Source: Draconibacterium aestuarii (lineage in GTDB: Bacteria; Bacteroidota; Bacteroidia; Bacteroidales; Prolixibacteraceae). From it: a DNA stretch of 64,000 nucleotides. The stretch spans positions 186,001-250,000 of the forward strand of contig JAPOHD010000012.1 in the NCBI GenBank assembly GCA_026671195.1, given 5' to 3'. Shown in pieces: positions 19,004 through 33,212 of this stretch; position 1 is the first letter of the stretch; every line of letters begins with the position of its first letter. The notes under the pieces were generated by a model. The model had not been told where the DNA came from, did no database searches, and saw only the letters and a program-made list of their open reading frames with translations. A program made the position numbers and the translations under genes.

Positions 19004-20228
19004 ATAGTCGATTATTGCCAACGATTAAAGCATAAACAGAACTAATATAGAAAATAAAACAATTATTGTTTAGACTATTTCTGATTCCGGCAAGAGGAGC
19101 GAGACTTACATTGCTAAAAATATCGAATGAGCGATAATTTAATAGAACTTGGGATTTTGGCCGCTAAACTTCTTGCTATAAGAGATTGACGAAATTGCAG
19201 ATCATTCTCGCAGGAATATCATACCTTCATGGAACGCTGCATCAAATACCAAATTGGTTTGTTTGAACAGTTCAATGAATACACTAGAATTAAGCCATAT
19301 TATATCAGTTTATTTTTTGCCTTGTTTCAGCGAAGAAATAAAAGGTTTCAGAAACCTGTTCCTCATATTTGAGTAAGAGGTTATGCATCTGACACGTACC
19401 GACTTGAAAGTTTCCTGTATCAAATTTGATACAGGAAGTGCGATAGGAAGTGATACAGGAACTGCGATTAGAACTGCGACAAGAAGTGCGATGTTATTCG
19501 AGAAAGTAAACCTTTCTACCCACGAAAAAAAGAGCTATTAAAAGTTTTATAAATTTCCCTATGCCACGGCATCTCACACTCGCAGTCTTTAATTCACCTC
19601 CATTCGTTCATACTTCATGGAACCGGCGTTGTTTTGTCTTTATATTTGAAAAGCCTTAGGCACCGCACGGAAAGAACAGCCCCTTTGTTTCACGGCAGGA
19701 CTGTACTTCCCTTTAGCCTGCTCGCCTTGCGTGTTATTGTAGTATTATAAATTTGAAAGATGGAAAACAAAAAAAGAAAGCCAAAGTTAGCCATCCTACG
19801 CACCATCCGACCCAGATTTAAATACAAGGCTAAAGTAAATGCCCTGATTTTATAAATTGAAATCTGAGCGGAACGAATATTAGTTTTCAGGGCAGCCTTG
19901 TATTTAACCCCGGATGGCAAGTCTGAGACTTTCTTTTCTTTTTTTTCTTTTTTTCTTCTCTTTTGGGGATATTTTATTTTACAAAATAAAATCAATAGAG
20001 CCTGTTCTCATATACTTAGTCCCAAGTGAATGACTTAGTTGGTGGGGGAGAGGTTGGCAAGATGTGATTTTGTTTCACAAAATCCCTCGTGCCTTTCCGG
20101 CAAGGACTTTTAATCTGTCGATTAAAAGCTTGATTAATTCTTCGAATTAAGATCTTTAAGGGAATATGAAGATGATTTTAAAAACAATGTCCATTACTAT
20201 TAGGCAACGGACATTGAAATGTTAATCA
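19004..20228. other. 1.2-kb non-coding region with palindromes, beside the integrase gene
   Basis: I see no credible gene. At 19412-19437 lies a perfect 26-bp palindrome, followed by two near-identical 17-mers (19428-19444 and 19452-19468) and weaker copies up to about 19492. At 19818-19831 and 19894-19907 a 14-bp inverted repeat (ends in AAGGCT/AGCCTT) has outer arms CCATCCG/CGGATGG at 19803 and 19911, so the stretch 19803-19917 could fold as RNA. A 101-codon minus-strand frame (19690-19995), very Lys/Arg-rich, runs through this fold and is probably not a gene. The region is likely part of the element carried by the integrase. Confidence 0.5.
19412..19437. repeat. Perfect 26-bp palindrome followed by degenerate repeats
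   Basis: The half-site TTCCTGTATCAAA is followed directly by its exact reverse complement. The right arm is reused: GATACAGGAAGTGCGAT (19428) recurs at 19452 with one change, and GAACTGCGA/GAAGTGCGA fragments continue to 19491. It may be a protein-binding site or the end of a mobile element. Confidence 0.7.
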
Positions 20229-32286: not shown

Positions 32287-32664
32287 ATGAAAAAGATTAT
32301 TGCTACAACAAATGCACCAGCAGCAATTGGCCCGTATAGTCAGGCTGTGGAAGTAAACGGTACATTATATATTTCGGGGCAGGTACCTTTGGTGCCTAAA
32401 ACCATGACAGTTGTGGAAGGCGGTATAAAAGAACAAACGCTGCAGGTGATGCAAAATATTAAGGCGATTTTAAGCGAAGCTGGTTATTTGTTTACCGATG
32501 TTGTTAAATCGACCTGCCTGTTAAGCGATATGGCCAATTTTAAAGCCATGAACGAAGTATATGGTGAATTCTATAAAGAGAATCCTCCTGCACGTGCTGC
32601 ATTTGCTGTAAAAGAATTACCGCTTGGAGTGTTGGTTGAGATTGAAACCATTGCGGTGAAATAA
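32287..32664 (+). CDS. ridA: RidA family enamine/imine deaminase
   Basis: RidA hydrolyses reactive 2-aminoacrylate and other enamines released by PLP enzymes. The 125 residues carry the complete family pattern: IATTNAPAAIGPYSQAV at the N-terminus, GTLYISGQVPL, TLQVMQNIKAILSEAG, VVKSTCLLSDMANFKAMNEVY, and the substrate-binding Arg within PPARAAFAVKELPLGVLVEIE. It lies 51 bp behind the LptD-like gene on the same strand. Confidence 0.95.
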   Translation: MKKIIATTNAPAAIGPYSQAVEVNGTLYISGQVPLVPKTMTVVEGGIKEQTLQVMQNIKAILSEAGYLFTDVVKSTCLLSDMANFKAMNEVYGEFYKENPPARAAFAVKELPLGVLVEIETIAVK

Positions 32665-32714: not shown

Positions 32715-33212
32715 AGGGCAATCCTGAAAGTTTATTTCCTTTCCGACGGTTGTCGACAACAATCCTGATGATTTATTTGCATTACGACGGCTGTCGATAT
32801 AAAAATTGATGATTCATTTTCTTTCCGACAACTGTCGGCATTAAAATTGACGATTTATTTTGTTCGCGACCGCTGTCGACAACAATCCTGATGATTTATT
32901 TGCATTACGACGGCTGTCGATATAAAAATTGATGATTCATTTTCTTTCCGACAACTGTCGACACTAAAATTGACGATTTATTTTGTTCGCGACCGCTGTC
33001 GACAACAATCCTGATGATTTATTTGCATCGCGACGGCTGTCGACATATAAATTGATGATTCATTTGCTTTACGACAACTGTCGGCATTAAAAATGGCGAT
33101 TTATTTTGTTCACGACCGCTGTCGACAACAATCCTGATGATTTATCTGCATCACGACGGCTGTCGATATGAAAATTGATGATTCATTTGCTTTGCGACAA
33201 CCGTCGGCATCC
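32715..33212. repeat. Array of twelve palindromes with exact 41-bp spacing
   Basis: Twelve sites of the form CGAC-N4-GTCG start at 32744, 32785, 32826, 32867, 32908, 32949, 32990, 33031, 33072, 33113, 33154 and 33195, so every interval is exactly 41 bp. The 29-bp spacers share a core like ATTGATGATTTATTT and fall into three classes that cycle, giving a 123-bp higher-order unit. All twelve palindromes are intact (96 of 96 core bases), while spacers carry substitutions. No frame is open across it. The spacers are not unique, so it is not CRISPR. Function unknown. Confidence 0.95.

Follow-up and report, generated by a model that had tools for sequence, protein, structure and literature searches.

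Tandem 41-43 bp dyad arrays and their linkage to DUF6261 genes in Bacteroidia

Across many genera of Bacteroidia we find a family of tandem arrays with units of about 41-43 bp, usually lying just upstream of a DUF6261 gene. Dyad arrays of this pitch linked to DUF6261 are apparently an undescribed kind of DNA array; an earlier note on this DNA had supposed that no system of such form was known, and the open-access literature that we searched contained none. One member of the family stands in a 64,000-nucleotide stretch of the Draconibacterium aestuarii genome (the whole of which we call the window), where twelve CGAC-N4-GTCG dyads follow one another at a pitch of exactly 41 bp. This window array has the 41-bp tandem unit and an N4 dyad in each unit but no adjacent DUF6261 gene, its dyad class being linked to DUF6261 at another place in the same genome (G000:C57). 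Judging from sequence comparisons, we consider it an even prospect that this array is kin to the DUF6261-array modules, a solo copy without the gene, and would act as a multi-site platform on duplex DNA, probably for an assembly containing DUF6261.

Results

The window array and its neighbours

CGAC-N4-GTCG occurs twelve times in the 64-kb window, every time within the array, against a chance expectation of 0.20 and a maximum of 2 in 100 shuffles. Our count agrees with the earlier note, which had described twelve palindromes at exact 41-bp steps, a 123-bp superperiod and intact cores amid drifted spacers. TRF describes the array as 11.4 copies of a 41-bp period with 72% matches or as 3.8 copies of a 123-bp period with 93% matches. 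All 96 of the 96 arm bases are unchanged. One unit apart, identity is 66% among spacers and 57% among N4 centres; three units apart, both reach 92%, and the spacer identity of 0.92 at this lag compares with 0.64-0.67 at lags of one, two, four and five units. With 5 to 9 stops in each of the six frames over 480 bp the array is no coding repeat, and with spacers that recur every 123 bp at 92% identity it is not a CRISPR, both as the note had argued.

Table 1. Positions of the window array, its neighbours and other arrays (window coordinates unless a contig or locus is named)
Feature	Position	Strand	Remarks
Tandem array of 12 CGAC-N4-GTCG dyads	32744..33206	.	pitch exactly 41 bp
Dyad starts	32744, 32785, 32826, 32867, 32908, 32949, 32990, 33031, 33072, 33113, 33154, 33195		
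Higher-order repeat, 123 bp	32744..33206	.	four rounds of three unit types, always in one order
Partial unit 5' of first dyad	32715..32743	+	spacer-like, without dyad; from the sequence
ridA-like gene	32287..32664	+	PF01042, E 9.7e-42; 80 bp before the array
Accessory gene, 267 aa	33327..34130	+	121 bp after the array
CGAC array, own genome	G000:C45		8 dyads
CGAC array, own genome	G000:C54		7 dyads
CGAC array, own genome	G000:C57		8 intact dyads and one damaged; adjoins intact DUF6261 gene
Pattern-found array	L085		DUF6261 beside it
Pattern-found array	L090		DUF6261 beside it
Pattern-found array	L095		DUF6261 beside it; Bacteroidaceae MAG
Pattern-found array	L098		DUF6261 beside it; Phocaeicola MAG
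Pattern-found array	L087		no DUF6261 in fetched DNA
Pattern-found array	L091		no DUF6261 in fetched DNA; Parabacteroides MAG, cut at the array
Pattern-found array	L094		no DUF6261 in fetched DNA; Mediterranea MAG
CGAC-N4-GTCG array, 41 bp	L097:384-641		diverged spacers; Verrucomicrobia MAG
CGAC-N4-GTCG array, 41 bp	L092:4984-5118		diverged spacers; Hymenobacter sp. BT18
41-42 bp array, other letters	L213:13972-14300		no DUF6261 nearby
41-42 bp array, other letters	L215:3050-3330		no DUF6261 nearby
41-42 bp array, other letters	L231:1184-1500		no DUF6261 nearby
41-42 bp array, other letters	L276:18588-18840		no DUF6261 nearby
41-42 bp array, other letters	L287:2221-2430		no DUF6261 nearby

The setting given in the note, between ridA and an orphan gene, stands in its first half by the PF01042 match; the ridA-like gene is a neighbour, outside the array system. 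The supposed orphan is a rare accessory gene: among 393 genomes of the order, the own genome being one of the 393, four genomes from two other families have full-length relatives of it (45-54% identical) and a fifth has a short match. The other 36 genomes of the genus hold no match to it at E <= 0.001. Its product has no match in Pfam, PHROG, NCBIfam or PADLOC and proved unrelated to DUF6261, and none of the four full-length relatives is accompanied by a 41-43 bp array. DUF6261 was found nowhere in the 64-kb window, nor was a remnant of it within 2 kb of the array. In Rfam, the sole match between 32000 and 34000 was a sub-threshold one to the S15 leader, lying outside the array, and six loci gave no matches at gathering scores. 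A short 12/24-bp tandem repeat detected by TRF at 19427-19492 is unrelated to the window array.

CGAC arrays in the genome and genus

BLAST and a pattern search found three further CGAC arrays in the 6.37-Mb, 69-contig assembly of the same genome (G000; Table 1). Dyad pairs at 37-45 bp were present in 11 of 61 genomes (the own genome and 60 relatives), every one of them in the own genus, which includes Draconibacterium orientale FH5T (G006; NZ_CP007451.1, placed by NCBI in class Bacteroidia, order Marinilabiliales); a pair in G004, with 42-bp spacing and foreign spacers, is probably a chance match. Eighteen arrays (the window array, the three others of its genome and 14 of relatives) could be aligned in register, with a pitch of 41 bp and rarely 40. 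A sequence model of 94 columns for this kind of array, R1, matched at E <= 0.001 in 12 of 37 genomes of the genus; its match at G000:C4:218718-218796 corresponds to 32718-32796 of the window and so spans most of the partial unit before the first dyad. The earlier note had proposed searching relatives for the 41-bp pattern and kept neighbours, which indeed yielded more arrays, some beside DUF6261. It had also said that absence from close relatives, with core and spacer drifting equally, would count against its reading; here the outcome is mixed, since the R1 matches are confined to those 12 genomes and the drift is unequal. DUF6261 proteins of the clade that accompanies CGAC arrays occur in 8 of the 37 genomes. 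Each of these 8 also has R1-type arrays, and the remaining four of the 12 array-bearing genomes (G002, G030, G007, G012) lack such a protein at E <= 1e-20; as the genomes are related and the counts are not independent, this co-occurrence is supporting evidence only.

Weaker R1 matches included 41-bp arrays with other dyads. CCAC-N4-GTGG-like arrays, for example, occupy a common site in five genomes (L110, L111, L119, L120 and L124), those of L119 and L120 being degenerate, and GC-rich 41-bp arrays were met at other sites. When R1 was searched across the order, with 10 candidates scored per genome, three weak matches appeared outside the own genome; one, from another family (L157), is a clear array adjoined by DUF6261, and two (L158 and L159) do not look array-like. 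An unselected periodicity scan of 400 kb each from G034, G013, G000 and a control genus, G370, returned two, two and four 41- or 42-bp arrays in the first three, besides other periods; those of G000 include a CAA-rich repeat (L277) and a weak case (L280). No 41-43 bp array appeared in the 400-kb scan of G370, and with the TRF settings a 43-bp array was present in 1 of 100 of its windows. Further 41-42 bp arrays of other letters were seen in three genomes of the genus (Table 1), that of L215 seemingly made of 21-bp GGGGAT..GTGCCCC units, and G370 has several tandem repeats of 22-bp period, about two helical turns (L254:15455, L251:5018, L258:9285).

Arrays lie upstream of DUF6261 genes

Genes of DUF6261 (Pfam PF19775) adjoin 4 of the 18 registered arrays, the partner in D. 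orientale (L044) matching PF19775 at E 2.8e-23 and the other three being assigned by BLAST and profile. DUF6261 matches occur in 26 of the 37 genomes of the genus and, at E <= 1e-10, in 14 of a sample of 149 genomes from the order; a single genome has as many as 10 within the genus and as many as 16 in a different genus. We next consider the linkage from the side of the gene, using 72 DUF6261 loci fetched by protein alone as the best-scoring of each search (30, 29 new and 13; two of the 29 new loci, which came from the order-wide search, are from G000). TRF found an array of 38-45 bp at 65 of the 72 and none at 7. The pitch was 42 bp in 33 loci, 41 bp in 27, 43 bp in 4 and 45 bp in 1, so that 64 of the 65 fall at 41-43 bp, and the arrays contain 2.1 to 9.1 copies (median 5.6). 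With start codons chosen by script, the array was upstream of the DUF6261 start in 63 of 63 measurable loci, at 26-766 bp (median 145) and in 60 of them at 26-360 bp; it lies downstream of the gene in L077, and L075 is without a called start. Arrays of 41-43 bp accompany DUF6261 in the own genus and in 12 of 13 other genera.

Under a single criterion for loci and controls alike (a TRF array of 41-43 bp spanning at least 100 bp), 24 of 30 DUF6261 loci from the genus and 23 of 27 from the 13 other genera were positive, compared with 8 of 400 random 3.46-kb windows (2/100 in G000, 3/100 in G034, 2/100 in G013, 1/100 in G370). Control loci at rplI were positive in 2 of 30 cases, one being the window array itself, and those at OMP genes in 4 of 30, at a serpin/ECF site that itself bears CGAC arrays.

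Starting from the array, 15 stretches were retrieved solely by their DNA pattern, and in 4 of them DUF6261 adjoined the array; in L090, from Draconibacterium orientale, the DUF6261 gene occupies 1369-2103 on the minus strand. In the subset of seven arrays from Draconibacterium, Parabacteroides, Mediterranea, Bacteroidaceae and Phocaeicola records, three had no DUF6261 in the fetched DNA. Matches to a three-palindrome pattern came also from other phyla (Bacillus, Corynebacterium, Streptomyces, Spirochaetales, Selenomonadaceae, Planctomycetota). These mostly have near-identical units and may be ordinary minisatellites, and the scan does not bear on whether 41 bp is special because the pitch was preset at 41. 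DUF6261 was not found in the stretches fetched around the diverged arrays from a Verrucomicrobia MAG and from Hymenobacter (Table 1). Among 30 gene-less arrays one (L052) has a DUF6261 remnant, 55 C-terminal residues lying 88 bp away.

Two public records show the same arrangement: Parabacteroides distasonis NZ_OY725757.1, whose annotated 'DUF6261 family protein' (WP_011966849) has a 42-bp array upstream, and the unannotated MT839608.1, which carries DUF6261 with a 42-bp array upstream. The former (L338) is a 422-kb record named plasmid 12 that seems to be a chromosomal piece, as the genes der and era and one for beta-ketoacyl-ACP synthase III lie on it; the latter (L337), a 4-kb fragment from human faeces, is entered as unverified 'Bacteriophage sp.' and may come from a bacterium or from the edge of a prophage. 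A phage collection gave one 4-kb record with a DUF6261 relative, and plasmids gave no match to one query and one match to another. A viral origin was considered and rejected: the two-palindrome matches that 10 viral contigs gave resemble pairs formed by chance, and one single-protein search found no DUF6261 relative in viral contigs.

Many arrays at DUF6261 loci are followed, in whole or in part, by a conserved tail, approximately TTATGTTAAyAGTTTTTACC ... TTTAAACCGTGAATACGCGCCCTGAAATAA (L042, L044, L047, L066, L067, L113, L121, L239, L324, L326, L329), which is present even where the dyad is quite different. Seen from DUF6261, L044 and L047 have, beyond the array and some 200 bp of conserved tail, genes that resemble those of defence systems: L044:7935-8999 encodes a GmrSD_N protein that matches NsnA and PD-T4-2_A of PADLOC, and L047:8050-8802 a DUF6602 protein with PD-DExK/NucC matches.

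Dyad geometry persists while the letters vary

From locus to locus the letters of the dyad vary, and the pitch and the form half-site-N4-half-site persist. Statistics were computed on 59 of the 65 DUF6261-locus arrays, near-duplicates having been removed; the analyses of mismatches and arm conservation kept only dyads with arms of at least 5, and the latter covered the 47 arrays that have 3 units or more. The best dyad was stronger than in dinucleotide shuffles (Fisher p 1.6e-10 over the 59 arrays), 20 of the 59 being significant singly at p<0.05. Arm columns were better conserved than the rest (0.858 vs 0.771), with arms higher in 36 of 47 arrays (Wilcoxon 1e-5). The greater constraint on palindromes than on spacers that the note had suggested for the window array thus extends to arrays found by their gene, and both this comparison and the axis profile below used such arrays, not arrays found by palindrome. 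Arm conservation in the pattern-found arrays is partly selection bias, since intact palindromes were the means of fetching them, and their unit list contains some out-of-register rows, part of which also enter its arm-conservation figure.

Inverted repeats with arms of at least 6 occurred at spacings of 0, 2, 4, 6 and 8 in 10, 12, 12, 14 and 10 arrays, against 1.6-1.9 expected, and at spacings of 1, 3, 5, 7 and 9 in 2, 5, 6, 2 and 2, a slight rise being confined to 3 and 5. For axes placed between bases, the pairing excess peaks 2-8 positions out (0.66-0.83 vs 0.57-0.61, mononucleotide shuffles serving as control), is absent at 0-1 and is mild beyond 8. Even spacing combined with an excess at 2-8 and none at 0-1 gives the general form half-site-N4-half-site. 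One dyad finder favoured complementary centres; the even/odd spacing test is free of such a preference. Mismatches within dyads were 97 G.T and 106 A.C of 1689 pairs, an equality that speaks for duplex DNA over a transcribed hairpin, and a small positive control of 42 tRNA acceptor pairs, with 6 G.T and 0 A.C, ran in the expected direction. At the level of sequence statistics, then, the view that the symmetry of the dyads acts in DNA is supported. Curvature was dropped as a line of evidence: A/T tracts are phased near a quarter of the pitch in 39 arrays, which is uninformative because one tract per unit yields such a peak automatically, and the window array has no A/T-tract phasing at 10.25 bp (0.12).

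Pitch runs with the protein phylogeny

Mapped over all groups of a 70-protein DUF6261 tree, pitch requires 16 changes, compared with 30.3 after shuffling and with 0 of 200 shuffles as low, a link that is partly inheritance and is inflated by near-copies that share arrays. A clade of 13 proteins that includes the partners of CGAC-class arrays has a pitch of 41 bp throughout yet about six dyad classes; the CGAC protein L319 clusters with L320 and L327, whose dyads differ from its own, and dyads differ even among DUF6261 proteins that are 70-80% identical. The pitch is thus kept with the protein and the dyad letters are not, and this independence within a clade argues against sequence-specific recognition by DUF6261. 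The note had attached meaning to a pitch of about four helical turns, and both the course of pitch along the tree and the enrichment of 41-43 bp arrays at DUF6261 loci point the same way.

The protein itself has a D-x-x-R-D motif in which D69, R72 and D73 are nearly invariant among 34 diverse members. It is predicted to be all-helical by a four-sequence model of moderate confidence (pLDDT 77.5, pTM 0.46), with which a fold search found no significant match. Pfam, NCBIfam and the fold search revealed no recognised DNA-binding fold, PHROG and PADLOC no recombinase, and a sequence search at E <= 0.01 no relative of solved structure; sub-threshold matches were to CDPS (Pfam, NCBIfam), CARF3 (PADLOC, E 0.0027) and an exonuclease (PHROG, E 0.34). 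In the open-access literature searched by full text, the family's name turned up in one paper.

Copy number changes at a shared site

The intergenic region between divergent serpin and ECF sigma genes provides a natural series of copy numbers, compared by eye at 15 species loci. The array is absent from G029, G036, G003, G008 and G000; unrelated filler takes its place in G024, G006 and G012; about one unit is present in G013, G007 and G009, four dyads in G005 and G030, seven in G002 and eight in G034. By eye, G009 resembles G030 minus three units. Copy number thus seems to change largely by trimers, via exchange between units, which would also account for the 123-bp superperiod of the window array. 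At the window locus we considered that array and accessory gene had been inserted together as a cassette between ridA and rplI, and rejected the idea on finding no clean empty site, the gene order beside rplI varying between species. Neither terminal inverted repeats nor target duplications were seen by eye in the flanks of the 18 arrays or in the serpin/ECF series.

Discussion

One way to view these arrays is as a series of docking places, in which a protein assembly, probably containing the DUF6261 protein, would bind once per unit along a single face of the helix. Such an assembly would read pitch and symmetry more than letters, leaving each array to drift in concert. At DUF6261 genes the platform could serve autoregulation or local DNA organisation, and solo arrays, the window array among them, could be further places of docking or what is left of modules whose gene was lost. 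The chromosome-organising or copy-sensing protein that the note had envisaged is likewise a conjecture.

One alternative is a system like type III toxin-antitoxin pairs, in which the array would be transcribed into a tandem structured RNA that binds or inhibits the product of the downstream DUF6261 gene. The layout is similar, with 2.1-9.1 tandem units upstream of one gene; ToxI-type repeats are of 34-36 nt in 2.8-5.5 copies (PMC5086642), in 10 loci a mere 26-48 bp separate the array from the start codon, so that it may sit in a leader, and an N4 centre would also fit tetraloops. We nevertheless judge it improbable: the dyads have no G.U bias, a simple scan found a terminator-like signal on the gene strand in 2 of 60 array-gene gaps (with 3 on the opposite strand and 0.4 after shuffling), the DUF6261 model is all-helical, many arrays have no DUF6261 gene beside them, and dyads differ between 70-80% identical proteins where antitoxins of close type III toxins are reported to be conserved.

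Rather less improbable, though still unlikely, is that the arrays are neutral minisatellites, born of slippage or unequal exchange, carried about with other DNA and drifting, their apparent constraint being recent homogenisation. The serpin/ECF site varies largely by whole trimers (none, about one, four, seven or eight dyads) and bears unrelated filler in other species, and R1-type arrays are patchy in the genus (12/37), all of which speaks for such a process. It leaves unexplained, however, why arrays of unrelated letters share one pitch, why they are linked to one gene family in many genera, and why they have an N4 dyad geometry with better-kept arms. The least probable of the readings weighed here, and a distinctly improbable one, makes DUF6261 and its array a transposon-like element comparable to REPtrons, with solo arrays as non-autonomous copies. 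The multiplicity of DUF6261 (up to 10 matches per genome in the genus and 16 in another), the dispersed copies of a single dyad class, the common leader and tail around several linked arrays and the accessory genes beside some of them are in its favour, but no terminal inverted repeats or target duplications were seen by eye, and DUF6261 has only sub-threshold matches, none to a recombinase. The docking platform, probably for a DUF6261-containing assembly, is the reading that we prefer.

With the linkage, DUF6261, which has been annotated solely as a family of unknown function and occurs in several genera of Bacteroidia, gut species among them, gains a defined DNA partner, and its function becomes directly testable. 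Free drift of letters under a fixed pitch and dyad geometry is unusual in bacterial DNA. A bolder proposal, which we offer as doubtful, is that DUF6261 would be the first of a class of bacterial proteins to read the spacing of a DNA satellite in place of its letters: a ruler of about four helical turns that stabilises freely changing arrays, with a private array for each paralogue and solo arrays as further organised places.

Comparison with known systems

Several known systems resemble the DUF6261 arrays in part. MITE464/PgRS of Porphyromonas gingivalis, in a related gut and oral group, consists likewise of multi-copy 41-nt tandem repeats (PMC4596501), and BrickBuilt of 23-nt tandem repeats that are always intergenic; both have IS5-like terminal inverted repeats, of which none were seen by eye in the DUF6261 arrays. 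The type III toxin-antitoxin systems (ToxIN, CptIN, TenpIN) also place a tandem array before one gene and keep the unit length while the sequence diverges. The DUF6261 arrays are unlike them in that the terminator is mostly missing, RNA pairing bias is absent, dyads are not conserved among close proteins and gene-less arrays are common. Searches bearing on whether DUF6261 belongs with the endoribonuclease families ToxN, CptN or TenpN gave Pfam DUF6261 itself, sub-threshold Pfam CDPS and NCBIfam hits, and no significant fold match. REP elements and the REPtrons of RAYTs are dispersed palindromic repeats partly tied to one gene family (PMC3733652), as here, the REPs being 20-40 bp palindromes tagged GTAG or CGTC and often dimers. 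DUF6261 arrays, in contrast, are direct 41-43 bp units beside a protein without a transposase match. Among the 20 flanking proteins scanned with Pfam there was no RAYT tyrosine transposase.

Plasmid iterons and par centromeres are phased multi-site arrays beside the gene of a protein that acts on DNA. The DUF6261 arrays differ from these in being chromosomal, in having many paralogous copies with letters of their own, and in a pitch of about four turns. The proposed ruler would resemble eukaryotic centromere proteins, which tolerate changing satellites; a pitch-reading protein, if confirmed, would offer a bacterial model for satellite-like DNA.
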